This document shows positions 1 through 17,377 of a stretch of DNA of 64,000 bases, in pieces (the first letter of the stretch is position 1; every line of letters starts with the position of its first letter). Below the pieces are notes generated by a model. The model saw only the letters and a list, made by a program, of their open reading frames with translations. It did not search any database and had not been told where the DNA came from. The position numbers were made by a program, and so were the translations under genes. The stretch comes from Tessaracoccus defluvii (GTDB taxonomy: Bacteria; Actinomycetota; Actinomycetes; Propionibacteriales; Propionibacteriaceae). The DNA lies in NCBI RefSeq assembly GCF_014489575.1, contig NZ_CP060789.1:3100001-3164000 (forward strand), read 5' to 3'.

Positions 1-454
1 GCGGCGTGACCTGCTGAAGCATGAGTTCGATATTCTCGACGTCCCGCACGACCTTCGTCTGGACGACGGAGGAGCTCACCCTGCCGTAGTACCCGATCGA
101 GAGAGTCTGGAGGCGGGCCGCAAGGCTGTTGCGCAGCACTGCTCCCGTGTCTCGGACGACCGTCATGAAGCTGCGTGTGTAGAATAGCGTGTTCGGGTAG
201 TTCTGCAGCAGCAGAGCCGCGGCTACGGCGAACCAGATGAGGACGCCCCGCAGGTCGCCGGAGTTCACCACGATGTCGATGATCGCCGCCGTGACAACAG
301 GCAGATACCAGACCGGGATCTCTTTGAGGGCGAACGCGAGAACGGCGAGGGTGAGCCGCCCTGGTCGCCGCCGCAGCAGGCGGAGAAGTGAGCGCACAGG
401 CCGCGCGCCGCTGATGTCCACGTGACCTCTGTCGTACGGTGGCCGGGCCCTCAT
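1..454 (-). CDS. ABC transporter (exporter type), N-terminal part, runs off the window
   Basis: The reverse strand encodes an open frame of about 151 residues cut by the window edge. It starts at ATG 454 with a basic stretch (RSLLRLLRRRPGRL), followed by hydrophobic segments (about residues 35-58 and 67-85) and then an amphipathic part (RLQTLSIGYYGRVSSSVVQTK) typical of the first membrane domain of fused ABC exporters, where the transmembrane half precedes the ATPase half. The start overlaps the stop of the upstream GH3 gene in an ATGA, so the two are translationally coupled and probably co-transcribed. The ATPase half lies outside the window, so exporter type and substrate cannot be fixed. 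The exporter-fold assignment rests on sequence character only. Confidence 0.7.
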   Translation of the reverse strand, partial: MRARPPYDRGHVDISGARPVRSLLRLLRRRPGRLTLAVLAFALKEIPVWYLPVVTAAIIDIVVNSGDLRGVLIWFAVAAALLLQNYPNTLFYTRSFMTVVRDTGAVLRNSLAARLQTLSIGYYGRVSSSVVQTKVVRDVENIELMLQQVTP

Positions 455-2310
455 GGTGCCGTGCGAACTCCCGTCCCTAAGCCGGTGCCGATGGGGTAGA
501 GGCACGCGGCTGGCTGAAGGCCGGCGTCGGAATCCACGGCACGCACGGCGTCCATGGACACCGGGATGGCGACCGGCAGCCGCCCGATCGGCGGCACGGT
601 CCCCGTCAGGGCATCGATGAGCGAGCCGTCCGAGACGCCGAACGTCACCGTCAACGCAGTGGCGATGTCGGAGAGCGGGGTCAGCACGGCGGCTCGGTCC
701 AGCGCCACGTCGACGATGAGCGGAGCGGCCGCTGCGATCGTCCTCAGCCGATGGATCAGCCCGGGCCTGAACTCCAGGGACCCCTGGTGGAAGAAGGACT
801 CCAGGAACAGGTCGTCGCGAGGATCGAAGGGGGCGCCGATCCGGACGATCGCGACATCGGCCTCCTCCGGGGTGGCCACCACCGGTCCGGGCAGGCCCGG
901 CGTGGCGGGGTCGACGCCCTCCAGGTAGACGCGGGCACCCGGGGCCAGCGGCAGCGCCTGGCGCCCGCGGACCTCGTGGTTCTCGAGCACCACCACCGAT
1001 CGGGACTGGGCCACCCGTCCCGCCTCGCGGTGTGCGTCACAGCCCGGCACGGTGGCCGCGGCCTCCTCGCCGACGTAGGGGTTGTCGAACAGGCCGAGCC
1101 GGAACTTGACGAGGAGGATACGGCGCACCGACTCGTCGAGGCGCGACTCCGGCACCAGGCCTCCTGTCACCAAGCCCAGGAGCGTCTCCACGCACTCCTC
1201 ACCGCCCACCTGGTCGACGCCGGCGCTCAGCAGCTTGAGGAGGCGTTCGCTCGGTTGCAGCCCCTCCACCCCCCAAGCCCTCGCAGGAAGGACCTGGTCT
1301 CCCACGTGGTTGTCGTTGATGAGTTCCCAGTCCGTCAGAATCACACCGTCGAAGCCCATGGCCTGCCGCAGGAGGCCTTGCAGCAGCTGTCGATTGAAGC
1401 CGATCCCCACCTCCTCGACGGGGTGGCCGTCCAGCACCAGGCCCACGGGGATGCCGTAGCCGGGCATGATGCCGGCCGTGCCATGCGCGATGGCCGTCCG
1501 GAAGGGCTCAAGGTGCTCCTCGAAGCGACCCGCAGGGTAGACGAGCTGCTTGCCGTAGGGGAAGTGCGCTTCCTCGCCGTCCTTCTGGGGCCCGCCGCCG
1601 GGGAAGTGCTTCGTGGTGCAGGCGACGCTGCCGGCGCCGGGGACGGGGCCCTGGAGGCCCGTCAGATAGGCGGCGGTGTGTGCCGCCGAGCGGCCCGCCT
1701 CGGCGCCGAACGTCTGGAGCTGTCGGCACCAGCGGGGGTCCGTCGCGAGGTCCACCTGGGGATGCAGGGCCGCGCGGATCCCCACGGCCACATACTCCTG
1801 CCGGACGATGTCGGCGAACGCCTCCGTAGTCGCCGGATCGTCGATCGCGGCCAACCCGAGGCTGTCGGGCCATTGGGAGAAGGGGCCGCCGGAGAATCCC
1901 ACCCCCACGTTCTCCGCGAACGCGTGCCGGGGATCACTGGAAATGGTGATCGGGATGCCGTGAGGGGTCTGCTCCGCGAGCCGTTGGAGACGGTTGACCC
2001 ACCTTGCCGCCGTCGCCCCGTCGGTGATCCCGTGGACGTTGAAGTGGTTCATCAGCTTGCTCAGGACGACGTGGGAGGTGGGCGACTTGCTGATGTTCCC
2101 GGGCCGCTCGAGCAGGTCGCCGTCCTGGTCCATCTCGATGACGGTGTGGAACATCAGGCCCACCTTCTCGGCGAGCGACAGCCGCCCGACGAGGTCCTCG
2201 ACGCGTTCTTCCGGGGTCAGCCGCGGGTCCTCGTAGGGGTCCATGACACCGTTGCGGTTGAGGTCGCGGTAGAGAGTGCCGTCGTCGGAGACCGCGATCA
2301 CTGGGGCCAT
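451..2310 (-). CDS. GH3 family beta-glycosidase (copy 1), cytoplasmic
   Basis: This 619-residue protein belongs to glycoside hydrolase family 3, retaining exo-enzymes that remove terminal beta-linked glucose or xylose. The TIM-barrel domain carries the KHFPGGGP stretch (residues 234-241) and the nucleophile motif GVILTDWE, with Asp327 as predicted nucleophile; the alpha/beta C-terminal domain follows to about 600. The N-terminus has a DLNRNGVMDPYEDP loop (16-29) that looks like a calcium-binding DxNxNGxxDxxE loop and is common in this GH3 branch. There is no signal peptide, so it should act on imported glycosides. It lies downstream of the GH10 gene but behind a terminator hairpin, and its stop overlaps the exporter start. 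A close paralogue, with very similar sequence over its whole length, sits at 17389-19228. The substrate is not determinable. Confidence 0.9.
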   Translation of the reverse strand: MAPVIAVSDDGTLYRDLNRNGVMDPYEDPRLTPEERVEDLVGRLSLAEKVGLMFHTVIEMDQDGDLLERPGNISKSPTSHVVLSKLMNHFNVHGITDGATAARWVNRLQRLAEQTPHGIPITISSDPRHAFAENVGVGFSGGPFSQWPDSLGLAAIDDPATTEAFADIVRQEYVAVGIRAALHPQVDLATDPRWCRQLQTFGAEAGRSAAHTAAYLTGLQGPVPGAGSVACTTKHFPGGGPQKDGEEAHFPYGKQLVYPAGRFEEHLEPFRTAIAHGTAGIMPGYGIPVGLVLDGHPVEEVGIGFNRQLLQGLLRQAMGFDGVILTDWELINDNHVGDQVLPARAWGVEGLQPSERLLKLLSAGVDQVGGEECVETLLGLVTGGLVPESRLDESVRRILLVKFRLGLFDNPYVGEEAAATVPGCDAHREAGRVAQSRSVVVLENHEVRGRQALPLAPGARVYLEGVDPATPGLPGPVVATPEEADVAIVRIGAPFDPRDDLFLESFFHQGSLEFRPGLIHRLRTIAAAAPLIVDVALDRAAVLTPLSDIATALTVTFGVSDGSLIDALTGTVPPIGRLPVAIPVSMDAVRAVDSDAGLQPAACLYPIGTGLGTGVRTAP

Positions 2311-2518: not shown

Positions 2519-3835
2519 TCAGGCCCGCTTGACCTTGACGGTCGTCGACTTGGACTCGGTTGTGCCCTGGGAGTTGACGAGTTCTCCCCGGTACACGTAG
2601 GTGCCGTTGGACTTGGCCGTGAACGGCACCTCGATCACCTGGGGGGAGCCCAGGGTCGCGTCCAGCGCCTGAGCGTAGACAAGGACGTCGTTCTCGTAGA
2701 GGCGGAAGTAGCTGCCGGGGGTCCCCTTCTTCAGTTCCATGGACACCGTGTAGTTGCCGTCCAACGGCCGCTTGGAGTCGTTGGTGCTCGACAGCTTGGC
2801 CACCGACGGCGCGGTCGCGTCGTGGGTGAAGCTGAGCAGGGCGTCCCGGTAAGCGAGGTAGGCGGCCTTTGGCTCGTACTCTTCGGTGAACATGAGGGGC
2901 TTCGCGCCCGGCAGCCACGTCCAGAGGTACTTGTCGGTGAACCCCCAGGTGCTGATCTCGGTGACACCTGCGGCGAGGGCCTCGGCCACCACGTCGCCGT
3001 AGATCTTTGCCTGAGCATCGGCGTCGTAGGTGTGGACGTCGAGTTCCGCGATGGAGACCTCGAGCCCGAGATCGTGGTAGGAGTTGACGATCTCCGTGAT
3101 CACGCCCGGCTGGGGGCCGACGTAGGTCTCGTGCATCTGCAGCGCCACCCCGTGGATGGGCACCCCGTCGGCCACCAGCCCGGAGACGAGCTCGTAGAGC
3201 GCCTGACGCTTCTCGGGCAGGAACTCCACCATGTTCTCGTTGATGAACAGCTTGGCATCGGGATCCGCCTCATGGGCGATCCGGAAGGCCTCGGCGATGT
3301 AGTCCGGGCCCAGCACCTTGTAGAAGTCGTTCTCGTTGAGGGTGGACCCCTGGGTCTCGAACATCTCGGTCACGACGTCCCACCGGTCCATCGTCTCCGA
3401 ATACCGGCCCATCACCGTGGTGAAGTGCTCGACCATGGCGTCGCGGAACTCGTCAGGATCGGTGATGTCGAGGAGATACTGAGGATTGCAGCACCCGGAG
3501 ATCAGGCCGTGCCCCTTCACCTGCATGTCGTTGTCCTGGGCGAACTGGACGAGGCGGTCGAGGCCGTCGAAGTTGTACACGTCCTTCTCGGGGTGCACGA
3601 ACGTCCACTTGAGTTCATTCTGGGGCGACAGGCTTTCGAACTCGGCGGCTAGCACCTGGGCGAACTGGGGGTCGTCGAGGTAATCGGGGTTGACCGCCCC
3701 GGACCCGATGAGGATTCCGGCTGGTTCGGCGATCTCCCGGAGGGTTGGTTCGTCGCCGGAGGCCGAGGGCGCGATCAGGGCTGTCAGGCCAAGGGCGGTG
3801 GCAACCGCGGTTGCCAGGATGCGTCGATAGCGCAT
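2519..3835 (-). CDS. Secreted GH10-family glycosidase with divergent active site
   Basis: The protein has 438 residues with a Sec signal peptide (hydrophobic core about 6-24, cleavage near ASG/DEP), a GH10 barrel (about 31-335) and a C-terminal beta-rich domain (about 340-438). Visible family residues are NELKW (73-77), the acid/base Glu157 in WDVVTEMF, QMH (233-235) and the nucleophile Glu264 in SIAELDV. Unlike typical xylanases, the GHTLVWH motif is replaced by GHGLISGCC (109-117) and the Asn before the acid/base Glu is Thr156, so the -1 subsite is altered. Known GH10 enzymes include xylanases and also the tomatinases of Clavibacter and Streptomyces, which act on a saponin sugar chain. It is the only secreted glycosidase of the island. 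A C-terminal relic of a second copy lies at 19348-19545. Confidence 0.85.
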   Translation of the reverse strand: MRYRRILATAVATALGLTALIAPSASGDEPTLREIAEPAGILIGSGAVNPDYLDDPQFAQVLAAEFESLSPQNELKWTFVHPEKDVYNFDGLDRLVQFAQDNDMQVKGHGLISGCCNPQYLLDITDPDEFRDAMVEHFTTVMGRYSETMDRWDVVTEMFETQGSTLNENDFYKVLGPDYIAEAFRIAHEADPDAKLFINENMVEFLPEKRQALYELVSGLVADGVPIHGVALQMHETYVGPQPGVITEIVNSYHDLGLEVSIAELDVHTYDADAQAKIYGDVVAEALAAGVTEISTWGFTDKYLWTWLPGAKPLMFTEEYEPKAAYLAYRDALLSFTHDATAPSVAKLSSTNDSKRPLDGNYTVSMELKKGTPGSYFRLYENDVLVYAQALDATLGSPQVIEVPFTAKSNGTYVYRGELVNSQGTTESKSTTVKVKRA

Positions 3836-3972: not shown

Positions 3973-5405
3973 TCACGGGTGTTCGCGGAGGTGAGGGATG
4001 GTCCGCGTGGCGCAGAGCTCTGCGAGCCAGTGCGCGCTGAGCTTGGGCAGCCGCTCCTGCGTCTCGTAGTCGACGCGGACCACCCCGAAGCGCGGGCCAT
4101 AGCCCAGCGCCCACTCGAAGTTGTCCAGCAGCGACCACACGAAGTAGCCTTGGACGTTCGCGCCCTGCTCGATGGCCCGGTGGGTCGCCGTGGCGTGCCC
4201 GATGAGGTAGCTGGTGCGGTGGTGGTCGAGCACCGCCGGCCGCCCGTCGATCTGCGTCACCTGGTCGTGGAATGCGGCGCCATTCTCCATCACCATGATG
4301 GGTAGCTCGGGGTACTCCTCGGTGAGGGCCAGCAGGAGGTTCGTCAAGCCCTGCGGCTCGATGCCCCATCCCATGCCCGTGCGCTCCAGGCTCTCGGGCT
4401 GGACGGTCTCGACGTACTCCGAACTGGGGAAGTCCGTGCCGCCGAGGCTCAGGTTCTCCGGGTCGAGGTCGGCCGCGCCGCGCACGTGCATCACCTCGTA
4501 GTAGTTGACTCCCAGCAGGTCGAGCGGCTGGTGACAAGTCTCGAGGTCGCCGGGCTGGACGAAGCTCCAGTCGGTCACATGGCGCGTGTAGTCGAAGAGC
4601 TCCGCGGGATACGCCCCCGCAGCATGGGTCCGGTGAAGGCCCGGTTGGCGATGGCGTCAACCCGTCGGGCGGCCTCCTCATGGCCGGGCTCCGCCTCGAT
4701 CCGGAAGATGTTGAGCACCACGGAGACCCGTGCATCGGGTCGTGTGATGGTACGGCGAAGAGCCGCGACCCCCAGGCCGTGGGCCAGGTTGAGATGGTGC
4801 ACCGCGCGGAGCGCCGCCTCGTGCGACCGCACTCCGGGCGCGAAGGCTCCGCTGCCGTACCCCGAGTAGGAGTTGTTCCACGGCTCGTTGTGCGTGGCCC
4901 AGATGGCGACGCGGTCGCCCAGTGCCGCGCCCATCACCTCGGCGTACCTCTCGAACGCGTACGACGTCTGGCGCCCTCGCCAGCCGCCGTGCCGGTCCTC
5001 GAGCGACTGGGGCAGATCCCAGTGGTTGAGCGTCACCACCGGCTCGACGCCGCGGGCGAGCAGCCCGTCGACCAGCCTGGAGTAGAAGTCGAGCCCCTCC
5101 TGGTTGATGTCGCCGTCGCCCAGCGGCATCACCCGTGGCCACGAGATGGAGAACCGGTACGCGTCAAGGTTGAGCGAGGCGATGAGATCGAGATCGGCCT
5201 CGAGGTGGTGGTAGTGGTCCGCGGCCACGTCGCCCGTCGCGCCGTCGGCCGTCTTCCCCGGGGTATGGCTGAAGGTGTCCCAGATGGATGCCCCGCGTCC
5301 TCCCTCATGTGCGGCGCCCTCGATCTGGTAGGCGGCAGTGGCCGCGCCGAGGAGGAAGGGCTCGCGAAACGTCAGAGACCCACTCGTGATCTGGTCGTGG
5401 TACAT
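3973..5405 (-). CDS. GH1 beta-glucosidase, frame broken near 4614-4618
   Basis: This is a family 1 retaining beta-glucosidase of about 477 residues once one base is restored. The first part (5405 to about 4614) contains FLLGAATAAYQIEG and the acid/base motif THNEPWN (Glu174). The second part (to 3973) contains the nucleophile motif MVMENGAAF (about Glu375) and the C-terminal YFVWSLLDNFEWALGY signature. At 4614-4618 the minus strand reads GCGGGGGCGTATCCC; adding one G restores the expected LRG-x-YPAELFDY reading. There is no signal peptide, so it is cytoplasmic. It is divergent from the sugar-binding-protein operon and shares its 176-base promoter region. It is either a sequencing error in a G/C run or a recent pseudogene; the intact catalytic residues favour the former. 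Confidence 0.88.
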
Positions 5406-5490: not shown

Positions 5491-5506
5491 CGCAAATTGT
5501 TTTGCG
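5491..5506. promoter_or_regulatory. Candidate LacI-type operator between GH1 and the ABC operon
   Basis: CGCAAA-TTGT-TTTGCG is a perfect 6-bp inverted repeat with a 4-base centre, in the shared 5406-5581 intergenic region 76 bases upstream of the binding-protein ATG. Its AT-rich centre stands out from the GC-rich surroundings. The LacI regulator ending this operon (16343-17377) is the obvious candidate to bind it. No second copy was found in the window, so this rests on symmetry and position only. Confidence 0.4.
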
Positions 5507-5581: not shown

Positions 5582-6945
5582 ATGGACCGTTTTATCAGCA
5601 TCGGCCGGCGAGGAGTTCTCGCCGCCGCCGCAGTCACAACCGCCGTCTCGTTGCTCGCCGGATGCAGCCCCGCGTCGGACGTTGATTCCGCGGCCCCCAC
5701 GTCGGGCCCGGCGTCCATCGGACCTGCCACTGGCACCATCACCGTCATGGCGGGCGCCCAGGACCTGACCGAGGAGATGATCGCCGAGTTCAAGAAGGAC
5801 AACCCCGACGTCGAGATCGAGATCATCCTGACGGACCCGACCAGGCTCAACACCATGATCGCGTCGGGCAACCCACCGGACATCGCTACCGGCCCGGCGA
5901 CGGGTAGCGCCAACTGGAACGCGCGTGGACTGGCCACCGATCTGACGCCCTACCTCGAGCAGAGCACCGTATTGCGTGAGGACGACCTGCAGCCGGTCAA
6001 CGACGGCTTCCGCTGGGACGGCACGAAGAGCGGCTCCGGCCCGCTGTACGGCATCGTCAAGGACTGGAGCCAGGATGCGAGCCTCTGGTACAACACCCGG
6101 CTGTTCGACGAGGCCGGCGTGCCCCACCTCAGCGACACCGAGGCGATCTCCTACGACGAGCTCCTGGAGATCGCCAAGCAGCTGACGGTCAAGGACGGCG
6201 ACACCACGCAGGTCCATGGCCTGGGCCTCGAGTGGGCGTGGTCCCTCTACGCGCCGATGTCGGCCATGGTCATGCAGCAGGGCGGCAGCCTCTTCAACGA
6301 CGATCTCACCGAGATCGATTTCACTACCCCCGAAGCACGCCGCGCCTTCCAGTGGTACGTCGACTTCGCGGAGGCGGGAGTCGGTCCCACCTCGCTCGAT
6401 CCTCTCGCTGACGGCTCGGACTTCTCCACCTTCGCGGCCGAGCGGATGGCCATCACGCAGGACGGCTACTGGTTCGGCGGCAATTTCGCCGCCGAGGGCT
6501 CCCTCCAGACCGTCAAGATGGCGCCGGCGCCCACCATGGGCGATACGCGGGTCAACCCCACCTATGGCGGACAGGGCTGGTGGATCCCCGCCAAGGCCGA
6601 CAACAAGGACGGCGCGTGGCGGCTCATGGAGTACTTCATGGCCGGTCCGCCCGCCGTGGCGCGTGCCTCCAGCGGATGGGGGATGCCGTCTCTGAAGTCC
6701 CTGATGGACAAGCTGCCTCAGGAGCTGGACTTCCAGAAGCAGGCGTTCGCCGTCGCCCAGAACGAGATCCAGTTCGCGAAGCCGCTGCCCGACTCCCCGT
6801 ACATCACGATCGATGCCATCAACGCGGCGATCGACAAGGCGCTGCAGAGCGCGATCAAGGGGACCAGTCCGTCGACGAGGCGACCGCCGCCCTGACCGAA
6901 GAGGTCAACGCGCTGCTGGCTCAGGGCCAAGAGCTGATCGGCTAG
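5582..6945 (+). CDS. ABC transporter sugar-binding lipoprotein, frame broken near 6859-6862
   Basis: This is a family 1 extracellular solute-binding protein (CUT1 class) of about 454 residues. The chosen ATG 5582 follows AGGGAGGTCAAC; upstream in-frame codons do not look coding. A lipoprotein signal (LLAGC, Cys28) is followed by an S/P/A-rich linker and then the binding domain (ITVMAGAQDLTEEMIAEFKK onward). Near the end the run AAGGGGACC is one G short: with one G added the protein continues KGDQSVDEATAALTEEVNAL and stops at 6945, 9 bases before the permease gene. As read, the frame ends at 6895. It heads the nine-gene operon and defines import of an oligosaccharide or small glycoside; ligand unknown. 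Confidence 0.9.
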
Positions 6946-6954: not shown

Positions 6955-7878
6955 ATGAAGAAGAAGTGGTCCCGATATCCCGCCCGTACCTTCTACGCTT
7001 TCACGGCACCTTGGACCGTCGGTTTCCTCCTGCTCACCGCGGTGCCGTTGATCTACGGCTTCGCCGTGAGCCTGACCAACTTCGACGGGGTGTCGCCGCG
7101 CTGGAAGTTCGTGGGATTGCGGAACTACTTCGAGCTGCTGACCGACGGTGACCTGTGGGTCTCGCTGTTCAGGACCCTGGGCTTCGCGGCCATCGTGGTC
7201 CCGCTCAGCGTGGCCGGCGCGCTCGGCCTGGCGGTCATGCTCAACCGGCGGCTGAGGGCGGTGGGAGTGTGGCGAACCATCTTCTTCCTGCCCTCGGTCG
7301 TTCCGGTAGTCGCCCTGGCCATCATGTGGAAGCTCGTCCTCAACAAGGACTCCGGCATCCTCAACGCCCTCCTCGGCTCCGTCGGCATCGAGAAGATCTC
7401 CTGGCTGACGGACCCGATGGCGTTCTACGCACTGGTGATCATGACGCTGTGGGGCCTCGGGGGCGGCATGGTGATTCTGCTGGCAGCCCTCCAGGGGGTG
7501 CCGGTGGAGCTCGAGGAGGCGGCCACCGTCGATGGTGCCAGCAAGTGGAGCGTGTTCTGGCACGTGACGGTGCCCATGATCTCCCCGATCCTGTTCTTCC
7601 AGGTCATCACCGGGGTCATCGGCGCCCTCCAGATCCTCGTCCAGCCCCTTCTGCTCACCCCCGCCGGCGGCATCACGGGCGCCTCCTCGGTGCCCGAGAG
7701 CAACCGGCTCTACATGATCCGCGTCTACGAGGAGTTCTTCACCAAGAACCGGTTCGGGTACGGCTCAGCGATGCTGTGGGTGTACTTCGTGGTCATCCTC
7801 GCCCTCACGCTGGTGCTGCTGCGGTCGTCGCGGTCCGCGGTCTATTACGAAGTCGACATGGATGGAGAAGGACGATGA
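6955..7878 (+). CDS. CUT1 ABC sugar permease, MalF type
   Basis: This 307-residue inner-membrane permease has about six transmembrane helices. The cytoplasmic coupling loop carries the EAA motif (ELEEAATVDGASKWSVFWHV, near residues 186-205), which docks on the ATPase. The N-terminus begins just after the binding-protein stop. The stop overlaps the next permease start in ATGA (7875-7878), so the two are translationally coupled. No ATPase gene is present in the operon; CUT1 systems of actinomycetes often share an MsiK-type ATPase encoded elsewhere. The substrate is set by the adjacent binding protein. Confidence 0.93.
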   Translation: MKKKWSRYPARTFYAFTAPWTVGFLLLTAVPLIYGFAVSLTNFDGVSPRWKFVGLRNYFELLTDGDLWVSLFRTLGFAAIVVPLSVAGALGLAVMLNRRLRAVGVWRTIFFLPSVVPVVALAIMWKLVLNKDSGILNALLGSVGIEKISWLTDPMAFYALVIMTLWGLGGGMVILLAALQGVPVELEEAATVDGASKWSVFWHVTVPMISPILFFQVITGVIGALQILVQPLLLTPAGGITGASSVPESNRLYMIRVYEEFFTKNRFGYGSAMLWVYFVVILALTLVLLRSSRSAVYYEVDMDGEGR

Positions 7879-8753
7879 CCGCCCTCAGCACCCGCGCGGT
7901 TCAGCCACCCGACACCGTCACGCCTCGCAGGAAGCGCGACAGGCAGGTGGGGATCTACGTCCTGGCCGTCATCCTCGCGGCGATCTTCCTCGGCCCGTTC
8001 CTGTGGCTGGTCCTGGCCGCGTTCAAGACCCCCGCGGAGTGGGCGGCCCTCCCGATGCAGATCCTTCCGGAGCAGATCAATTGGGACAACTTCGTCTCCG
8101 CCGTCACCCAGGCCGACTTCCTCAAGTACCTGAGAAACTCCCTGTTCCTGGCCACCATCTTCGCCACCCTCACGACGCTCTCGAGCGCCACCGTGGGCTT
8201 CGGCTTCGCCCGCCTCCGCGCGCCCGGCAAGAAAGCGATGTTCGTGGTGCTGCTGGCGACGATGATGCTCCCGCAGATCCTGACCCTGCTCCCGACCTAC
8301 ATCCTGTTCTCCCAGCTGGGCCTGATCAACACCTATTGGCCGTGGGTGCTGTGGGGCCTCGCCTCGTCGGCCTACTTCGTGTTCCTCTTCCGCCAGTTCT
8401 TCTCCTCGATCCCGCGCGAGCTGGAGGACGCGGCCATCATCGACGGCTGCGGCTGGGGGCGCATGTTCTTCACCATCTTCCTGCCCCTGTCCAAGCCCAT
8501 GCTGATCACCGTGTTCCTGCTCTCCTTCATGGGCAGCTGGGGCGACTACATCGGGCCGGCGCTGTTCCTGGATCAGCAGAAGACCACACTGGCAGTCGCC
8601 GTCACCGCGTCCTACGTCGATCCCGCGGGCAACGCCCTCCCGACCGTTCAAGCCGCCGCCAGCGTGCTGTACATCATCCCGGTGCTGGTCATCTTCTTCG
8701 TCTTCCAGCGCTACTTCGTGCGGTCCTCCATCGGTTCCGGGCTCAAGGGCTGA
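7875..8753 (+). CDS. CUT1 ABC sugar permease, MalG type
   Basis: This 292-residue permease partner of the upstream MalF-type protein has six predicted helices and a coupling loop PRELEDAAIIDGCGWGRMFF near residues 182-201. The start ATG 7875 lies inside the upstream stop (ATGA) and directly follows AGAAGGACG. The C-terminus YFVRSSIGSGLKG is the classic ending of this family. Together with 5582-6945 and 6955-7878 it forms the importer of the glycoside operon. Confidence 0.93.
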   Translation: MTALSTRAVQPPDTVTPRRKRDRQVGIYVLAVILAAIFLGPFLWLVLAAFKTPAEWAALPMQILPEQINWDNFVSAVTQADFLKYLRNSLFLATIFATLTTLSSATVGFGFARLRAPGKKAMFVVLLATMMLPQILTLLPTYILFSQLGLINTYWPWVLWGLASSAYFVFLFRQFFSSIPRELEDAAIIDGCGWGRMFFTIFLPLSKPMLITVFLLSFMGSWGDYIGPALFLDQQKTTLAVAVTASYVDPAGNALPTVQAAASVLYIIPVLVIFFVFQRYFVRSSIGSGLKG

Positions 8754-8792
8754 CGGCCCCACCTCCACTCTTCCCGTTACAGGAGAATCTCC

Positions 8793-9594
8793 ATGCCATC
8801 GTCCCATCGGTGCAGCTCTACAGCGTCCGCCACGCCATGGATGCCGACCTGACAGGAACCATCGCGCGCGTCGCCGAACTCGGCTACACCAAGGTGGAGC
8901 CCTACGAATTCGTGGATCGCGCACACGAGTACTCGCAGGCGCTGCCCGCGGCAGCGGTCAGCGCCCCGTCGGCGCACGCCTCCGTCATCGATGTCGCCGA
9001 TCCCCAGCGGGTCTTCGACGCTGCCGCTCTGCTCGGCATCGGCACCGTCATCGACCCCTTCATCCCCAGCGAACGGTGGCGCACGGCCGACGACGCCCAC
9101 CGCCTCGCCGACCAGGCCAACGCCCTCGCGGCACGAGCCGCCGAGCACGGGCTCCAGTTCGGGTATCACAACCATCAATGGGAGTTCGCCAACCAGTTCC
9201 AGGGCAGGTCGGTCTATTCCTACTTCGCCGAGCGGATCTCCGACCATGTGGTCCTCGAGGTGGACACATTCTGGTCCACCGTCGGGGGAGCAGACACGCC
9301 CGCGCTGCTGCGCTCACTGGGCTCCCGGGTCCAGTTCCTCCACGTAAAGGATGGGAAGATCGGCGGCGACATCGCCACCGTGCTGCCGAGCAGCGAGAGT
9401 GCGCTCGTGGTGCCCGAAGCGCTCGCGCACGCCTTCAAGGAGCAGGTGCCGGCCGGCCATGGGCAGGTCGGAGTGGCCGCCATCCTCGCCGCCGCCCTCA
9501 CGCGACCCGCGTGGTGGAGTTCGACGACTACGCAGGGGACATCTTCGAGGGTCTCGCCGCGTCGTTGGCCTGGCTGAAGGATAACGACCGATGA
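8793..9594 (+). CDS. Sugar phosphate isomerase/epimerase-like TIM-barrel protein, two frame breaks
   Basis: This is a xylose-isomerase-like TIM-barrel protein of about 267 residues: VQLYSVRHAMDADL at the start, VAELGYTKVEPYE, GLQFGYHNHQWEF, VVLEVDTFW and VQFLHVKDGK in family order, with metal-ligand-type Glu, His and Asp residues. The ATG 8793 follows AGGAGAATCTCC, but the frame only joins the conserved region if one C is added at 8796-8797 (M-P-I-V-P-S-V-Q-L-Y). A second one-base loss in the C run at 9495-9497 is needed to reach HATRVVEFDDYAGDIFEGLA and the stop at 9594, which overlaps the Gfo/Idh start (ATGA). The family includes isomerases, epimerases and, next to Gfo/Idh partners, enzymes acting on 3-keto-glycosides. 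The reaction is not determinable here. Confidence 0.85.
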
Positions 9595-10697
9595 GCGGTG
9601 CCGGACCCGTCGGTGTTGGAGTGGTCGGTGCCGGGGTGATCTGCGACACGTACCTGGAGAACATGACGAGCTTCCCCGATCTGCGGGTGCTGTTCGTCGC
9701 GGATATCGATCCGGAGCGGGCGCGGGCCAAGGCCGAGGCGTACGGCGTGCCGGCCCACGGAGGTTACGCGGACCTGCTCGCCAGGGACGACATCGAGATC
9801 GTGGTCAACCTCACCACGCCGGATGTCCACATCGACCTGGACCTCATGGCGATCGTGGCCGGGAAGAGCATCTGGAGTGAGAAGCCGCTGGCGCTCGACG
9901 GCGCCACCGCCGCGCAGCTCCTGGCCGCCGCGGATGCGGCGGGCGTGCGCGTGGCGTGCGCCCCGGATACCGTACTGGGCGCGGGCATCCAGACCGCGCT
10001 GCGGGCGATCGCTCGGGGCGACATCGGTGAGCCGCTCACCGCCGTGACCGTATTCCAAGGGCCCGGGCCCGAGAGCTGGCACCCGAACCCTGACTTCCTC
10101 TACGCCCGCGGCGCCGGCCCGCTGCTCGACATGGGCCCGTACTACGTGACCACGCTGGTGCACGCCTTCGGCCCGATCGCTCGTGTGACCGCCATGGCGT
10201 CCAAGTCCCACGGCGAACGCGTCGTCGGCAGTGGACCGCGTCAGGGTGAGCGGTTCCCCGTCGAGGTGCCCACGCACCACTCGGCGCTGATCGGGTTCTC
10301 GGGCGGGCAGTCCGCGCAGTCTACGTTCAGCTTCCAGAACGCCCTGCCGCGCGCGGGCGTCGTCGAGATCAGCGGGACCGAGGGCACGCTGGTGCTCCCG
10401 GATCCCAACGCGTTCGTCGGCGACTCGGCACTGTGGCGCTTCGACGCATCCACGCCCCAGGTTCTGCCGGCTGTGGGTAACCACCATGGGCGTGGCTCGG
10501 GCGTGGTCGACCTCGCCAGGGCCCTCCGCGGCGGGGCGCCCGAGACCGCCGGCGGCGCCCTTGCCTCCCATGTGCTCGACGCGCTGCTCGCGATCGGGGA
10601 GGCGGCGGAGACGGGTCACCCGGTGGAGATCACCTCACGGGTGCCGCGGCCGGAGCCGCTCCCAGAGAGCTGGGATCCCGCACTGCGCACGCTCTGA
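9591..10697 (+). CDS. Gfo/Idh/MocA family NAD(P)-dependent oxidoreductase
   Basis: The protein has 368 residues. The N-terminal Rossmann fold begins VGVVGAGVICDTYLENM (GxGxxG type), with the family SEKPLALDG motif around residues 97-105, and the C-terminal alpha/beta substrate domain starts near 125 (GAGIQTALRAI) with GAGPLLDMGPYYV. The family oxidises sugar or polyol hydroxyls, including C3 of glycosides. It overlaps the preceding TIM-barrel gene by 4 bases, so the two are made together, a pairing seen in oxidative sugar and keto-glycoside pathways. Intact frame, cytoplasmic. Substrate inferred only from context. Confidence 0.92.
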   Translation: MSGAGPVGVGVVGAGVICDTYLENMTSFPDLRVLFVADIDPERARAKAEAYGVPAHGGYADLLARDDIEIVVNLTTPDVHIDLDLMAIVAGKSIWSEKPLALDGATAAQLLAAADAAGVRVACAPDTVLGAGIQTALRAIARGDIGEPLTAVTVFQGPGPESWHPNPDFLYARGAGPLLDMGPYYVTTLVHAFGPIARVTAMASKSHGERVVGSGPRQGERFPVEVPTHHSALIGFSGGQSAQSTFSFQNALPRAGVVEISGTEGTLVLPDPNAFVGDSALWRFDASTPQVLPAVGNHHGRGSGVVDLARALRGGAPETAGGALASHVLDALLAIGEAAETGHPVEITSRVPRPEPLPESWDPALRTL

Positions 10698-10740
10698 GCG
10701 CGCCCCCACTTCCTCCCGCTCTATCCGAAGGACCTTCCGC

Positions 10741-13190
10741 ATGACCGACATCCGCCACCTCATCAGCCGCCTTGACGTGGACGAGAAGATCGCCCAGATC
10801 CACGGCCTGCAGCCGCAGGAGCTGCTCCCCCGGGCGCCCACCGCGACGACGCGAACCCCCTCCGGGCGCCGCGACGCCTCGATGTGGACTTCGGCCGGCT
10901 CGCCTCGCTCCGGCCCCATGGGCTGGGACACCTGTCGTTGGGCCAGCAGATGAACTGGGACCTGGAGGGTCTGCGCACGGACATCGCCGCCGTCCAAGAG
11001 GCGTCGCGAGACTTGGCACCCTTCGGCATCGGCGTGCTGGTGCACGCCGAGGGGGTGAGTGGCTTCGTCCATCCTCAGGGCTACCAGTTCACGACGCCCT
11101 GGGGTCAGGCGGCGACGTGGGACCCGTCTATGTCGCGGCGAGTCGGGGAGCTGGCCGCGCGGCAGGCCCGCTCCGTTGGCATCCACCTCTTCCTCTCCCC
11201 GGTGCTTGATCTCGCCCGCGACATCCGATGGGGACGGGTACACGAGACGTACGGCGAGGACGCGGAGCTCGCCACCCGCATGGGCATCGGATTCGTGCGG
11301 GGCGTCCAGGGCGACGACGGCGACAGCGGGATCCTCGCCACGGGCAAGCACTTCCTCGCCTACAGCATCTCGTCGGGAGGGTTGAACCAGGCCGTCACGC
11401 AGCTCGGCAGGCGCGAGCTGGTCGACGTGCACGCCGAACCCTTCCGCCGGCTGATCGCTGAGGCCGGGCTGGCCGTGGTGATGAACTCGTACAACGAGAT
11501 CGACGGGGTGCCCGCCGTCGCCAACCGTTGGCTGTTCACGGATCTCCTGCGCGGTCAGCTCGGCTTCGACGGGCTGGTGGTCAGTGATTACGGGGCGGTC
11601 GCCATGCTCCACAGCGTCTACCGGGTGGCCGCGACACCCGCGCACGCGGCAGGGATCGCGATTCACGCGGGCCTCGACGTCGAGCTCCCCTCCGCGGACA
11701 TGAGCGGCGGCCTGCGCCCGCTCATCGAGGACGGCACCTTCCGTGAGGAGGACCTCGACCGCGCGGTGACCAACGTCCTGCGGCTCAAGGCGCGGCTGGG
11801 CCTCATCCCGGACATCCGTCCCTCGCGGCCCATCCCGGCGGTTCCGCCTATCGAGCGCCACATACCCGAGGACGCCGCCCGGGACGTGGCGGCGGCCGCT
11901 GTCACGCTCCTCGCCAACGACGGAGTGCTCCCGCTCACGGCCGGGGCGGTGAAGACTGCGATTGTCGGCCCCGGTGCCGACGAGCTCCGCCTGCACTTCG
12001 GGGCCTACAGCACGCTGTCCGAGGCCGAGATCGCCACGACGATCCACCTCATCAACACCGGCCGTCTCCCCGGCATGACCACGACGCCTGACGTCTTCCC
12101 GGACCTGTTCCAGACCAGGTTCCCGGGCGTGGAGCCACTCTTCGAGGAGATGGCCCGAGAACTCCATCCCGGCTCGCTGACCCTTGTGGAGGCGCTCCTC
12201 GAGCACGAGCCGACGGCGGAGTACCACGCGTTCGGCAACCTTGAGCACGCCGAGCCTCTTGATCTGGCCGCCATGAGGGAGGCGCTGCGCGACGTGGACG
12301 TGGTCATCGCCGTTGTCGGCGAACGGACCGGGTGGTCGGGCAACAACACGGCGGGGGAGGGGCGCACGGCCGCCGACCCCAGCCTTCCCGGCAACCAGAA
12401 CGAGTTGATCGAGGCGCTCCGGGGGCTCGGCAAGCGTGTGGTGACGGTTGTGGTGTCCGGCAGGCCGCTCCTGCTCCTGCCCGTGCACGAGGCGTCGAAC
12501 GCGGTCGTCCTGGCGCCGCTCCTCGGCCCTGTAGCCGCGCCGGTCATCGCCGACTGCCTCTACGGCGTCACCGAGCCGGGTGGCCGCACCCCCTCGACGT
12601 TCCCACGGCAGCTGGGCCAACTCCCGATGTACTACAGCCATCCCGTCGGCAGCGGCTACGAACACCCCACCCTGCCGCGACACGGATACATCGACCTCGA
12701 CGACAGCAGCCCGCTCTACCCCTTCGGCCATGGCCTGACCTACTCCAGCTTTGATGTGACTCTGACCGAGACCGGGGTCTGGGGCGATGCCGTCCACGCT
12801 TCTGGCTCGGTGCGGAACACGGGCGAGCGGGCCGGGACGGCGGTGGTCCAGCTGTACGCGCGCGACGAGGAGGCCTCGATAGTCCGGCCGGTCAAGCAGC
12901 TCGTGGAGTTCACCCGGGTGACCCTTGAGCCCGGGGAGTCGCGCGAGGTGTCCTTCACCGTTCCGTTGGCCCGCCTGGCCTACACCGGTCTGGATGACCG
13001 ACGCGTGCTGGAGCCCGGCGAGATCTCCGTCCTGCTGGGCCTCTCCAGCGCCGACATTCGGTCCCACGCGACGGTCACGGTGCCGGGGTGGGCGGCTGCT
13101 CCAACCTGTATCCAACCCGCACCGCTCGCAGGTCGCGCCGGCGATGTCGGCTCGGCCGGACAGCTGCTGGTTTCACCTCTTCCACGCTAG
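10741..13190 (+). CDS. GH3 family beta-glycosidase, three-domain type, frame broken near 10827-10831
   Basis: This is a GH3 enzyme of about 816 residues with the GH3 N-domain, C-domain (from about 390) and a terminal fibronectin-III-like domain (HASGSVRNTGERAGTAVVQLY onward). The start ATG 10741 reads TDIRHLISRLDVDEKIAQIHG; the C run at 10827-10831 is one base short, and with one C added the frame continues LLPPGAHRDDANPLRAPRRL into LASLRPHGLGHLSLGQQ. The nucleophile motif is FDGLVVSDYG, and KHFLAYS precedes it. There is no signal peptide. It belongs to a different GH3 branch from the two 613-619-residue copies, with architecture like beta-glucosidase/xylosidase enzymes. It is the sixth gene of the operon; specificity is unknown. 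Confidence 0.9.
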
Positions 13191-13198
13191 GACTTCTG

Positions 13199-14089
13199 AT
13201 GGAAGCTCGACCCCATCGACTCATCGTCAACACAGACGCCAAGAACGAGGCCGACGACCAGTTCGCCATCGTGCAAGCGCTGCTGTCACCGACGCTTGAC
13301 GTGTGCGGGATCATCCCTGCTCATTTCGGCAGTAGTCGGACACAGACGAGCATGCTCGAGTCGCGGGCAGAGGTCGACGAGATCCTGCGTCTGCTGGATC
13401 TGCTGGGCAGTGTTCGCGTGGCTAACGGCGCTCCTCACGCGCTTCCCGACGAGGCCACGCCTGTGCCCTCCGAGGGATCTCGCTTCATCGTCGAGCAGGC
13501 TTCCGCAGCCGAGGACCGCTTGTTCATCGCGTTCCTGGGTCCGCTCACCGACATGGCTTCTGCCTTGCTCGAAGAGCCCTCACTCGGTGGCCGCGACATC
13601 GTCGTGGTGTGGATCGGTGGTCCCCCTTATGGCGGGATCGAAGCGGCCTATGCTCCGGAGTTCAATCTTTCCAACGATATCGCGGCCGCCAACGTCGTCA
13701 TGGCGTCGGGTGTCGAGGTGTGGCAGATTCCGATGAACGTCTACTGCATGGTGGGCGTCGGTCACGACGAGCTCCGGCAGCGCGTGGCGCCTTACGGTGA
13801 ACTCGGCTCCTATCTCACGCGGCAGCTGATCGAGCTGAACGAGTCGTTTTCTACGCCGATGGAGTATCGAACGCTGGGGGACAACCCTGCGATCGGGGCG
13901 GTGATGAATCAGAGCGGGGGGACGTGGCGCCTCCGGCCGGCTCCTCGGTTCACGCTGGATGGGGAGATGGCGCCTGGTCCGGACCCCGATCGTCTGATCC
14001 GTGTGTACGAGTCGTTTGACGCCCGCTGGCTGGTGGAGGATCTCTTCGCCAAGATTCGTCGACACGCCGAACACCCTTTGGAGGACTGA
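13199..14089 (+). CDS. Nucleoside-hydrolase-like protein (copy 1)
   Basis: This 296-residue protein has the inosine-uridine nucleoside hydrolase fold. Conserved blocks are LIVNTDAKNEADD near the N-terminus, FLGPLTDMASAL and EFNLSNDIAAANVV. The canonical calcium-binding DxDxxxDD is changed to N-x-D-x5-DD (Asn11, Asp13, Asp19, Asp20), two residues longer, which marks a separate subfamily. ATG 13199 follows AGGACTTCTG. The stop overlaps the rhamnosidase start by one base (TGATG). Classical members cleave N-ribosides; inside a glycosidase operon an unusual N- or O-glycoside is more likely, but that is inference. A related gene lies at 19535-20422. Confidence 0.8.
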   Translation: MEARPHRLIVNTDAKNEADDQFAIVQALLSPTLDVCGIIPAHFGSSRTQTSMLESRAEVDEILRLLDLLGSVRVANGAPHALPDEATPVPSEGSRFIVEQASAAEDRLFIAFLGPLTDMASALLEEPSLGGRDIVVVWIGGPPYGGIEAAYAPEFNLSNDIAAANVVMASGVEVWQIPMNVYCMVGVGHDELRQRVAPYGELGSYLTRQLIELNESFSTPMEYRTLGDNPAIGAVMNQSGGTWRLRPAPRFTLDGEMAPGPDPDRLIRVYESFDARWLVEDLFAKIRRHAEHPLED

Positions 14090-16346
14090 TGGTCTGGCAG
14101 GCACGAATGATCTCTGCGGGCGCGGACTTCGCCGGCGCGCCGCTGCTGCGCCGCGAGTTCAGCCTTGACGAGAGGGCCGGTCGAGTCTCGCGGGCGCGGC
14201 TGACCCTGACGGCGCTGGGTGTGGTGGAGGCCTGGATTAACGGCCGGCCAGTGTCCGGGGACCTGCTTGTTCCGGGCTGGACGTCGTATGAGTGGCGCCT
14301 CCGCTATGCCGACTACGACGTCACCGAGCTCGTGGACGGGCCGTCGCTGGTGCTCGGGCTCTCGCTGGGCAAGGGGTGGCATGGAGGGCGCATGGGCTGG
14401 GCGCCGGAGGGGTCCTGGTACGGCGACGACATCGCGGTCCTCGCCCAACTCGAGGTCACCTACGACGACGGTACGCAGGAACTTCTCATCACCGATGAGA
14501 GCTGGCGCTCTGGGCCGAGCGCGATTCTCGCCAACGACCTCTACGACGGACAGACCATCGATGCCCGGCTCCGAGACGAGCGGTGGAAGCATCCCGGATT
14601 CGACGACGCGTCGTGGCTCGGGGTCCGTGCGCTCGATTTCGAGACCGAGAAGCTGGTGCCTTACATCGGTCCGCACGTGCGCCGGTGGGCAACCCTCTCG
14701 CCCCAGTCCATCACGCGGTCACCGTCTGGCAAGACGCTCGTCGACTTCGGCCAGAACCTGGTGGGCTGGGTGAAGTTCACAGCTACCGGTGCACCCGGAA
14801 CCGAGATCACCATCCGGCACGCCGAGGTCCTGGAGAACGGAGAACTAGGGACCGAACCACTGCGCTCTGCGGAGGCCACCGACCGCTACATCCTCAGCGG
14901 CGGTCGCGACGAGTTCGAGCCCACCTTCACCTTCCACGGGTTCCGGTATGCGGAGGTCAGCGGGTGGCCGGGCGAGCTGCGCACCGAAGATCTCGTGGCG
15001 GTCGCCGTCGGCTCGGAATTGAAGCGCACCGGACACCTCACCACGTCCAACCCGCTCCTCAACCGGCTCCACGAGAACGTCGTCTGGGGTCTGCGGGGCA
15101 ACTTCCTCGCGGTCCCGACGGATTGTCCGCAACGCGACGAGCGGCTCGGCTGGACCGGTGACATCTCGGTGTTCGCCCCGGCGGCGGCGTTCCTGTTTGA
15201 CGTCAAGGATTTCCTCAGCGACTGGCTGATCGATCTGGCCCTGGAACAGAAGCACCGAGACGGTATCGCCGGCTGGGTCGTGCCGGACGTTATGAAGTAC
15301 CTTCCCGCGGACTCAGTGTTCGGGGTGAGTGACTCCACCGCCATATGGGGAGATGCCGCCGTGTGGGTCCCATGGACGCTATACCAGGCCTACGGGGATG
15401 TCGCCGTGCTGCGGCGTCAGTACGAATCAATGTGCTCCCACGTGCGGCGTGTGGAACGGCTGCTGTCGCCCAACGGCGTGTGGGACGGTAACTTCCAGTT
15501 CGGAGACTGGCTGGATCCGGATGCGCCGCCGGACCAGCCCGCCCGCGCCAAGGCGGACCCCGCAGTGGTGGCCACAGCGTGTGCCTACCGCTCTGCCACC
15601 ATCGTGGCCCAGACCGCCGCACTCCTCGGCAGAGACTCCGACCACGCCGAGTTCGGCGGGCTCGCTGCTCGCCTGAAGCGGGCCTTCGGCGACGTCTACG
15701 TGCACGACGGGGTGGTCACAAGCGATTGCTCCACCGTGTACGCGCTGGCCATCGTCTTCGGCCTCCTGTCCCCGAGGACGAGGTCTCGGCGGGCGGAAGG
15801 CTCGCGGAACTCGCGCGCGCGGCCGACTTCCGGGTGACCACGGGGTTCGCCGGGACCCCATTCATCACGGAAGCGCTATCCAGGACCGGCCATCTCGATG
15901 TCGCCTACCGTCTCCTCCTGGAGACGGGCTGCCCGTCGTGGCTCTACCCCGTGACGATGGGGGCGACGACGATCTGGGAACGATGGGACTCCCTGCTGCC
16001 CGACGGGAGGATCAATCCCAGCGGGATGACCAGCTTCAACCACTACGCGCTCGGGGCGGTGGCCGACTGGATGCACAGGGTCATCGGCGGCGTCTCTCCG
16101 CTGGCGCCGGGCTACTCTCGGGTGCTCGTGGCGCCGCAGCCGGGAGGGGAGCTGACGGAGGCCCACACCGCTCTCGACACCCCCCACGGCCGGGTGGAGG
16201 TCCGCTGGACGGTCGCGGGAACCACGTTGAGGGTGGCGGCCGAACTGCCTGCGGGTGTCGACGGCGTCCTGCGTCTCCCCGGCCGGCCGGATCGGGAGCT
16301 CGGCCCGGGCCTCACGATTGAAACCTGTGCTTTCCTAGACGGGTGA
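14089..16346 (+). CDS. GH78 alpha-L-rhamnosidase, frame broken near 15770-15773
   Basis: The protein has about 752 residues. It has an N-terminal beta-sandwich (LTALGVVEAWINGRPV, VPGWTSY), the (alpha/alpha)6 barrel with general acid Glu351 in DCPQRDERLGWTGD, and further on the second catalytic region GATTIWERWDSLLPDG, where Glu is the probable base; a C-terminal beta domain ends it. GH78 enzymes remove terminal alpha-L-rhamnose by inversion. The frame stops early at 15837; adding one C to the run at 15770-15773 restores LLSPEDEVSAGGRLAELA. It is shorter at the N-terminus than the second GH78 of this window. No signal peptide, so it acts on imported glycosides. Its end overlaps the LacI gene (GTGA). 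Confidence 0.9.
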
Positions 16347-17377
16347 GCACAGACGCCCCCAGAAGTTCCGCAGCCACGCTGAGCGACGTCGCGAAGGTGG
16401 CGGGGGTCTCGCCCGGGACCGTGTCGCGGGTGCTGAGCCAGCGCGGTGATTTCCGTCCTGACACCCGCGCCCGGGTACTGGCAGCTGCGGAGGCGCTGGG
16501 CTATGACCGCTCGTGGACCCGTCGGGGTCGTCGCGCGCCGGAGGCGACCACCGTCGACCTGATCGTCGGCCAGGTGTCCCACGCCTGGAGCGACCGCGCG
16601 GTGCGGGGAGCCTGGCACGGAGCCGTGAGCATGGGTCTGGACCTTACTCTCACCACTGAGCGGTTGGAGGACGACAACGACGACTGGCCCAGCCGGGTCG
16701 TCCGGCGAGGCACCGCCGGCATCATCATCGGCCTGGCGCACCCCTCACCGTCGCAGCTGGCCACACTGCGGGCGGCGCACGTGCCCGTCGTCCTCCTCGA
16801 ACCCATCACCGGCTCTTGGGCCGACGTCTGCAGCGTGGGCACGACAAACTTTGAGGGCGGCTACGCCGCCGGGGCGCACCTGGCAGAAACCGGAATCGTC
16901 GACTTCGTCAGCGTCCAGGCCAGGCCGGCGTACAAATTCGTTCGCGGGCGGGAGTCGGGCTTCCAAGCCGCGGTCGAGGCCAGCGGTCCCGACAGCAGGC
17001 TACGCACCGTGCGCACCGGTTGGGACGGGGCCGGCCCGGTCCCCGAGCTCGCCAAGGTCATGGCCGACCGCAGGGGCAGGCTGGGCGTCTTCGCCTCGAA
17101 CGACGCCATCGCGCTGCGGTGCTACGAGTCCGCCTTCCACGCCGGGTTGAGGGTGGGCGTCGACGTCCTCGTCGTGGGTTTCGACGACGAGGTGCGCGCG
17201 GCACGCGCCACCCCGCCGCTCACCACGCTGCACCAGCCCATCGAGCAGATGACGGCGAAGGCCGTTGAGATCATCTGCGGCGGGGCGGCCGAGGAACTGT
17301 GGCTCAATCCTGAACGCCACGAACTCCCCGCGAACCTCGTGATCCGCGAATCCACCGCCGGACCCGGCTCGGGCTAG
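16343..17377 (+). CDS. LacI family transcriptional regulator of the glycoside operon
   Basis: This 344-residue regulator starts at GTG 16343, overlapping the rhamnosidase stop by 4 bases. The DNA-binding helix-turn-helix and hinge (LSDVAKVAGVSPGTVSRVLS, about residues 12-31, ending at LGYD) is followed by a periplasmic-binding-protein-like sensor domain (DLIVGQVSHAW onward, VVGFDDE, TLHQPIEQMT). It closes the nine-gene operon, so it probably senses the imported glycoside or a breakdown sugar and represses the operon, perhaps at the inverted repeat 5491-5506. Confidence 0.92.
   Translation: MSTDAPRSSAATLSDVAKVAGVSPGTVSRVLSQRGDFRPDTRARVLAAAEALGYDRSWTRRGRRAPEATTVDLIVGQVSHAWSDRAVRGAWHGAVSMGLDLTLTTERLEDDNDDWPSRVVRRGTAGIIIGLAHPSPSQLATLRAAHVPVVLLEPITGSWADVCSVGTTNFEGGYAAGAHLAETGIVDFVSVQARPAYKFVRGRESGFQAAVEASGPDSRLRTVRTGWDGAGPVPELAKVMADRRGRLGVFASNDAIALRCYESAFHAGLRVGVDVLVVGFDDEVRAARATPPLTTLHQPIEQMTAKAVEIICGGAAEELWLNPERHELPANLVIRESTAGPGSG

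Follow-up and report, generated by a model that had tools for sequence, protein, structure and literature searches.

A tomatinase-clade GH10 enzyme and a conserved sugar importer in a putative saponin-sugar utilisation island of Tessaracoccus defluvii

Gene content of the locus

The window analysed here, a stretch of 64,000 nucleotides from the genome of Tessaracoccus defluvii, carries the genes and features listed in Table 1. Pfam and ORF searches recovered every part that the first-pass annotation had named, namely a GH10, a CUT1 importer, GH1, several GH3 and GH78 enzymes, and oxidoreductive sugar genes. That annotation had put the limits of the island at positions 451 and 17377; the genes it named do lie there, but the island is wider on both sides. 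Beyond the right limit, GH3a and the nucleoside-hydrolase-like gene each have a second copy and a further GH10 is present as a remnant; to the left are an ABC exporter gene and a second LacI gene, whose product is 79% like the first LacI.

Table 1. Features of the island and its borders (positions in the window).
Feature	Position	Strand	Remarks
MsbA-like ABC exporter, gene end	1..346	-	runs on left of the window; tblastn 59-66% to the exporter adjoining the VKM Ac-2855 locus
GH3a, beta-glucosidase type	451..2310	-	PF00933; signal peptide absent by inspection; solved beta-glucosidase 9ul7 matched at 844.6 bits
Putatively secreted GH10, tomatinase clade	2519..3835	-	PF00331, 241.7 bits; C-terminal part mostly strand
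GH1	3985..5405	-	frame change near 4614
Palindrome, possible operator	5491..5506		in GH1/SBP divergent promoter region
CUT1 solute-binding lipoprotein (SBP)	5582..6945	+	PF01547; lipobox by inspection; end from sequence reading; apparent frame change near 6860
CUT1 permease 1	6955..7878	+	PF00528
CUT1 permease 2	7875..8753	+	NCBIfam matches, UgpE/MalG type
Xylose-isomerase-like TIM barrel (AP_endonuc_2 type)	8783..9594	+	PF01261; frame change near 9496; 69% + 78% to VKM Ac-2855, two frames
Gfo/Idh/MocA oxidoreductase	9591..10697	+	PF01408, PF22725
GH3b, xylosidase/glucosidase type	about 10740..13190	+	438.7 bits to beta-xylosidase 7zb3; apparent frame change near 10860
Nucleoside-hydrolase-like gene 1	13172..14089	+	PF01156
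GH78, alpha-L-rhamnosidase type	14089..16346	+	PF17389, PF08531, PF05592, PF17390; frame change near 15770; 68% + 63% to VKM Ac-2855, two frames
LacI-family regulator	16343..17377	+	PF00356, PF13377
Second GH3a copy	17413..19231	-	84% + 69% to GH3a in two pieces; frame change near 17770
Remnant of second GH10, C-terminal part only	19354..19545	-	67% over 64 residues to island GH10
Nucleoside-hydrolase-like gene 2	19535..20422	+	PF01156; 59% to gene 1

The importer comprises the lipoprotein SBP and two permeases of the MalF/MalG type. No GH2 was found among the ORFs of the island that were scanned, and PDB entry 9ul7 was named by no paper that we found in the open-access literature. The palindrome occurs as one copy, with none further in the window or its left flank, and its match count was not beyond chance; a shared LacI operator was therefore dropped. 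At a distance of 17-30 kb along the window, a cluster of GH115, UxuA, GH78 and GH3 genes indicates that the organism has hemicellulose-type genes too.

The putatively secreted GH10

By inspection, the GH10 bears a Sec-type signal peptide and appears to be the sole clearly secreted enzyme of the set. Its identity to TomA of Clavibacter michiganensis is 61% overall and 69% over the catalytic domain, and its identity to 13 other GH10s that we compared is 24-43%; the assignment of protein P0042 as TomA is supported by published primers. P0226 from Fusarium oxysporum f. sp. albedinis, a tomatinase by its source's naming, is 62% identical over the catalytic domain. A tree of 46 rows (P0001, 30 of the 237 proteins P0010-P0246, 13 loci and two PDB catalytic domains) put the island GH10 in a clade of 33 rows together with TomA and P0226, with support of 100/100, and left the 13 other GH10 rows outside. 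Both GH10s of the Root166 genome formed long branches that were flagged by the tree program. The enzyme thus groups firmly with tomatinases and not among xylanases; a firm place among xylanases is what the first-pass annotation had named as counting against its proposal.

The altered -1 subsite that had been noted in this GH10 is real and proved, in the alignment of 46 rows, to be a signature of the tomatinase clade. At the positions that align with Cex W84, H85, Q87 and N126, none of the 33 clade rows has the residue of xylanases, and the clade's residues appear in none of the 13 other GH10 rows. Where xylanases have GHTLVWH.Q and WDVVNE, the island GH10 has GHGLISGCC and WDVVTE. The acid/base Glu is present in 46 of 46 rows, and the nucleophile Glu lies within an AELD motif in the island GH10. 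Among P0010-P0246, which come from the best 120 of 773 and the best 120 of 524 matches, the pattern [GA]H..IS was found in 232 of 237 proteins and WDV.[TSA]E in 234. In a structure search the best 50 matches per program were GH10 xylanases (Cex included) or a designed protein, with no tomatinase among them. Based on the tree and the motifs, we rejected the reading of this GH10 as a xylanase.

The genome has no other GH10 and gave no match to GH11, and a clade-level GH10 match was absent from the 197 other genomes of the family that were searched. The clade is wide, taking in many soil and plant fungi as well as Kineococcus.

Conservation of the locus and comparison with known systems

Ten genomes or records with a clade GH10 were found, the window's included, and nine were opened. 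The same CUT1 importer was present in all eight of the other opened genomes, at 64-74% per protein; it lies within 7 kb of the GH10 in seven of these and 43 kb away in one (Root166). Besides T. defluvii, the locus is carried by Microbacterium, Arthrobacter, Kineococcus, VKM Ac-2855 and one genome from a different family. The gene sets vary over the nine loci, with GH78 in seven, GH1 in seven, GH3a in six and the TIM/Gfo pair in four, absences being scored within stretches of 31 to 53 kb. Kineococcus, which was opened after the pattern had been tabulated, repeats the arrangement GH10-TetR-SBP-permeases-TIM-Gfo-GH3. Most of the other loci have a TetR gene, which is missing from the window (a 28% match only), and the island has LacI.

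Among 366 Microbacterium genomes, all four GH10 carriers had the importer, which occurred in five genomes altogether (p = 7e-9, ancestry ignored). The importer cut of 61% behind this count was set after the matches had been seen; at the search's own threshold eight of the 366 genomes match and p = 1e-7. The centre genome, G589, is itself a GH10 carrier and was included. One Microbacterium genome (G1322) has the importer, TetR, GH1 and GH3a without a clade GH10, and the importer may therefore serve other oligosaccharides. On the strength of the GH10/importer co-occurrence we rejected a chance neighbourhood, and the conservation of the neighbours supports a single pathway in which these genes jointly handle a small glycoside.

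TomA, the closest known system together with the tomatinase reported for Streptomyces scabies, shares both the clade and the -1 signature of the island GH10, but the latter is shorter (438 versus 543 residues) and has an importer, GH78 and TIM/Gfo as neighbours. The tomA region of Clavibacter holds glycosidase and sugar-uptake genes, so part of the GH10-importer link may be known already. The fungal tomatinases of the FoTom1 type, to which P0226 belongs and which were compared by protein only, fall in the same clade, but are single-domain proteins, unlike the island GH10. Actinobacterial CUT1 loci, for example those for cello-oligosaccharides, combine an extracellular enzyme, a lipoprotein, two permeases, intracellular GH1/GH3 enzymes and LacI, and have no ATPase gene in the locus. 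The island differs from these in having a tomatinase-clade protein as its extracellular enzyme and in the presence of GH78 and TIM/Gfo.

Sphingobium RC1 is an alphaproteobacterium. According to the available text of its report, several glycosidase families there act jointly on tomatine and steroidal saponins, the candidates being GH3, GH39, GH78 and GH106 (PMC10653915), and the island resembles it in having several glycosidase families together. The RhaA/GluA/GalA cluster of Arthrobacter S41 and Glutamicibacter halophytocola S2, compared by description, acts on rhamnose-bearing steroidal glycoalkaloids through GH2, GH3 and GH78 enzymes and, like the island, has GH78 and GH3 together; however, it includes a GH2, and the terms GH10 and transporter are absent from the available text (PMC9597252).

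A candidate pathway for saponin sugars

Judged from its sequence, the locus is probably a saponin-sugar utilisation island. Outside the cell, the putatively secreted GH10 would split a steroidal or triterpenoid glycoside at the bond between its aglycone and its oligosaccharide, leaving the chain whole, much as GH10 tomatinases are described to free whole lycotetraose (PMC8960721). The lipoprotein would then capture the freed oligosaccharide for import by the CUT1 permeases, and GH1, GH3a, GH3b and GH78, which have no signal peptides by inspection, would trim glucose, xylose and rhamnose in the cell. The TIM-barrel/Gfo pair may process an oxidised or rearranged sugar. The TIM protein (G922 copy) matched 8tcs/8tcd at 58 bits and Gfo matched a DgpA1 entry at 54 bits, both distant matches only; 8tcs/8tcd belong to 3-keto-glycoside oxidative deglycosylation, a pathway with a Gfo-type 3-dehydrogenase and a TIM-barrel lyase. 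Regulation would be by LacI here and by the TetR protein in most other loci, and the ABC exporter may expel the aglycone or the glycoside.

The first-pass annotation had proposed deglycosylation of a plant saponin or glycoalkaloid. The small-glycoside part of that proposal is supported by the GH10 clade and the conserved neighbours; the substrate itself may be a glycoalkaloid, some other steroidal or triterpenoid saponin, or a plant glycoside of another kind. Tomatine lacks rhamnose, and GH78, which points to rhamnose, argues against tomatine as the substrate. A flavonoid rhamnoglucoside or a similar small glycoside from plants could be the substrate if clade members act on other aglycones with the rest of the pathway the same. 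GH78 with GH1/GH3 would fit flavonoid rhamnoglucosides as well, the nearest solved structure to the VKM Ac-2855 GH78 is the alpha-L-rhamnosidase 6gsz, and the clade is wide; nevertheless, the known characterised clade members act on alpha-tomatine, as far as the available texts report (PMC8960721, PMC8844524), and we regard this alternative as unlikely.

The frame changes bear on whether the saponin-sugar pathway works in this organism. Protein comparison showed that GH1, TIM, GH78 and the second GH3a switch frame part-way, and sequence reading and a frame scan indicated that SBP and GH3b seem to do so as well. Were these real mutations, the locus would be decaying and its pathway no longer working here, an explanation with which the six affected genes, the GH10 remnant and the frame scan (three unexplained changes in 21 kb, from 1 to 21 kb, versus four in the remaining 43 kb and none in 15.5 kb of left flank) agree. 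However, identity past the frame change was still 63-78% in the four genes measured, and GH10, GH3a, both permeases and Gfo are intact. Moreover, a G/C run of at least four lies within 10 bases of five of the six sites, whose positions are approximate, versus 18% of positions generally, which fits the expectation for sequencing error, and at the second-GH3a site P0270, from another contig, reads on in a third frame. We consider decay very improbable, and the six genes are probably out of frame through sequencing error. Use of xylan or xylo-oligosaccharides, with a GH10 endoxylanase outside, CUT1 import, and GH3/GH1 xylosidases inside, is the least credible reading, given that the GH10 differs from xylanases in tree position, identity and motifs and that GH78 is found in most of the loci.

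In the open-access literature searched we recognised no description of a tomatinase-GH10/importer locus; PMC6998099, in the part available, merely lists CAZy families. In the portions of the literature available, GH10 tomatinases are given a role in detoxification or virulence, with the oligosaccharide left behind, and these sources yielded nothing on the fate of that oligosaccharide in bacteria. We tentatively propose, at somewhat less than even confidence, that actinobacterial GH10 tomatinases first served as the extracellular entry step of a mobile pathway by which sugar chains are harvested from diverse plant saponins as nutrients. The pathway would be encoded by a conserved locus with an aglycone-sensing TetR or sugar-sensing LacI, a CUT1 importer for the freed oligosaccharide, GH1/GH3/GH78, TIM/Gfo and an aglycone exporter. 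The tomato pathogen's tomatinase would descend from this entry enzyme as one specialised form, and fungi would have acquired their GH10 tomatinases from actinobacteria. The conserved importer and intracellular glycosidases would make the freed oligosaccharide the purpose of the system, and the loci would provide a list of candidate saponinases for glycoalkaloid removal or rare-saponin production. The island suggests that, for some bacteria, the sugars of toxic plant saponins are food, and that these bacteria do not merely detoxify such compounds.

The window GH10 and the tomatinase clade

A maximum-likelihood tree with 46 rows placed the window GH10 in the tomatinase clade (33 rows, support 100/100, long stem) and left outside it 13 other GH10s, of which 11 are unannotated copies from genomes and two are xylanases of solved structure. 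Its catalytic domain is 69% identical to that of TomA, the GH10 tomatinase of Clavibacter michiganensis, and 62% identical to that of P0226, a Fusarium protein that is a tomatinase by name; identity to the 13 other GH10s is 24–43%. These results bear out the core of the first-pass annotation, which had drawn the comparison with GH10 tomatinases. The protein is sister to the metagenome protein P0010 (100/100), and the pair stands beside a group of TomA, Agromyces and Microbacterium oleivorans proteins (82/75). Named relatives among the matches listed in the protein search included P0042 of C. michiganensis (61% identity over 100%) and P0034 of Streptomyces turgidiscabies (62%), and the nearest solved structures were xylanases, at no more than 184.3 bits. 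P0042 is very probably TomA, because nine tomA oligonucleotides published in PMC12089995 each encode, in some frame, a peptide present in it; five of these peptides are present in 3 to 9 of 246 proteins, and three are so widespread among clade members (80 to 205 of 246) that they carry little weight.

A ten-row group that includes the fungal tomatinases (100/100; two rows of unknown source) was, with the 13 other GH10s as outgroup, nested within the actinobacterial clade (100/99 and 91/83), which hints at a transfer from actinobacteria to fungi. Microbacterium sp. EYE_78 (G590:C1:1042774-1047242; stretches L032 and L002) carries two clade GH10s, the second of which (52–55%) has AHSGIS in place of GHGLIS and lacks the double Cys.

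Gene layout and frame changes

The window (3100001-3164000) lies on a single contig of 3.86 Mb. By inspection, GH10 is the only island glycosidase with a secretory signal, and the solute-binding protein (SBP) of the CUT1 importer has a lipobox. The segment 17413-20422 is a partial duplication of 451-3835 and 13172-14089: the second GH3a matches the first at 84% and 69% in two pieces, the adjoining GH10 remnant keeps the GH3a-GH10 order, and the second nucleoside-hydrolase-like gene is 59% identical to the first.

Features of the island (window coordinates; GH3a and GH3b are two types of GH3)
Feature	Position	Strand	Remark
ABC exporter, end	1-346	-	
GH3a	451-2310	-	
GH10	2519-3835	-	
GH1	3985-5405	-	
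SBP, permease 1, permease 2, TIM barrel, Gfo/Idh/MocA, GH3b, nucleoside-hydrolase-like, GH78, LacI, in that order	5582-17377	+	divergent from GH1
Second GH3a	17413-19231	-	
GH10 remnant	19354-19545	-	
Second nucleoside-hydrolase-like gene	19535-20422	+	

Six conserved genes appear to be out of frame as assembled (sites near 4614, 6860, 9496, 10860, 15770 and 17770). Real decay of the locus may lie behind these changes, and a frame scan found them somewhat more frequent in the island than in the rest of the window; assembly error is nevertheless likelier, since the sequence behind the break keeps 63–78% identity in four of the six genes, a G/C run of at least 4 lies within 10 bases of five of the six sites (versus 18% of positions in 1-20000), and at the second GH3a a protein encoded on another contig follows a third frame. 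The assembly probably contains indel errors.

Conservation and distribution of the locus

All genomes and records with a clade-level GH10 from the genome and plasmid searches, minus the Clavibacter record, were compared: G922 (VKM Ac-2855), G589 (Microbacterium oxydans BEL4b), G1180, G590 (EYE_78), G591 (Microbacterium sp. Root166), G455 (another family), W01 (Arthrobacter sp. StoSoilB13 plasmid) and G1389 (Kineococcus radiotolerans). The counts below cover the surroundings of the GH10s in these eight and, where stated, in the window. SBP and both permeases are present in all eight (64–74% per protein), within about 7 kb of GH10 in seven and 43 kb away in G591. When the window is included and absences are taken within the stretches compared, GH1 is found in 7/9 loci (at least 72% where in one frame), GH3a in 6/9 (about 63% or more), GH78 in 7/9 (at least 46%), the TIM barrel protein with Gfo/Idh/MocA in 4/9 (the Arthrobacter copies at 41% and 54%), a TetR gene of at least 68% in 7/9 (46% in G590, 28% in the window) and an MsbA-like exporter in 3/9. 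G922 has SBP-perm1-perm2-TIM-Gfo-GH1-GH3a-GH78 as one run, each gene in a single piece except Gfo, which is cut by the stretch border. The Kineococcus locus, found and examined after the pattern had been tabulated from the others and without a written prediction, reads GH10-TetR-SBP-perm1-perm2-TIM-Gfo-GH3, with the SBP-to-GH3 order of the window; GH1, a GH3a orthologue and GH78 were not found there within 40 kb. Gene sets differ between loci, which counts against the proposed pathway or limits it.

Other genomes repeatedly carry, close to their tomatinase locus, a second module of a short GH1 (64–98%) and/or an SDR dehydrogenase (62–98%; 38% in G455) (stretches L033 16466-18447, L038 906-2887, L032 1424-3434, L030 10733-15374 and L031 7606-8397; G591:C1:1644674-1646655). 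The module is absent from the window and perhaps acts on the aglycone. The Clavibacter plasmid-search match H1, NZ_CP076350.1, is listed as a plasmid of 131,593 bases, and PMC7692107 describes a Clavibacter strain contig of 131,602 bases as holding the chromosomal chp/tomA island; given the near-equal size, NZ_CP076350.1 may be that island.

Among 366 Microbacterium genomes, GH10 (E<=1e-100) occurs in 4, SBP of at least 63% in 5 and both in 4 (hypergeometric p = 7e-9, or 1e-7 with the 8 SBP genomes at the search threshold; both values ignore shared ancestry). The fifth SBP carrier, G1322, has importer, TetR, GH1 and GH3a and lacks a clade-level GH10. No such GH10 turned up in the 197 further genomes screened from the window's family; it occurs in 1/393 other genomes of the class sample, and, G589 itself counted, in 2/398 genomes of G589's family and 2/258 of its order sample. 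SBP had no match at E<=1e-20 in any of 14 near relatives, nine of them of the same genus. The flank carries, 7 to 15 kb before the window's left end, a Mutator-family transposase gene and a type I restriction R gene. The island was likely gained by transfer. The left flank (stretch L042, G000:C1:3085001-3100500) also holds an MFS sugar transporter, a distantly related TetR (28%), another LacI (79%) and, directly beside the island, the ABC exporter.

A putative small-glycoside pathway

GH10 tomatinases are described in PMC8960721 as taking the whole lycotetraose off alpha-tomatine. Lycotetraose or a counterpart chain, freed by the window GH10, would enter through the importer, and GH1, GH3 and GH78 would then trim it. 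GH3a is closely related to the solved beta-glucosidase 9ul7 (844.6 bits) and is about as long as the ginsenoside-hydrolysing GH3 enzymes of PMC6690934 (Table 1). Solved relatives of the TIM/Gfo pair are all distant, and an oxidative side route through it is possible. The presence of GH78 suggests rhamnose in the substrate; the sugar chain of tomatine is not known to contain rhamnose. A hydrophobic aglycone may be the ligand of the TetR regulators.

The first-pass annotation had favored deglycosylation of plant saponins or glycoalkaloids over xylan use. The setting does look like a small-glycoside pathway, and the substrate assignment stays a prediction. A separate cluster of hemicellulose or glucuronide type at 34266-46860 (GH115, UxuA, another GH78 and a 1133-residue GH3) places hemicellulose-type genes near the island, within the same window, which limits this reading.

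The Clavibacter tomA region holds sugar-uptake and glycosidase genes, and our literature search covered only open papers, so the tomatinase-importer link may already be known in part. Beyond the first-pass annotation, the comparison shows the locus to be a conserved unit with a patchy distribution over several actinobacterial families, and the tomatinase seems to carry out the opening step of feeding in it.
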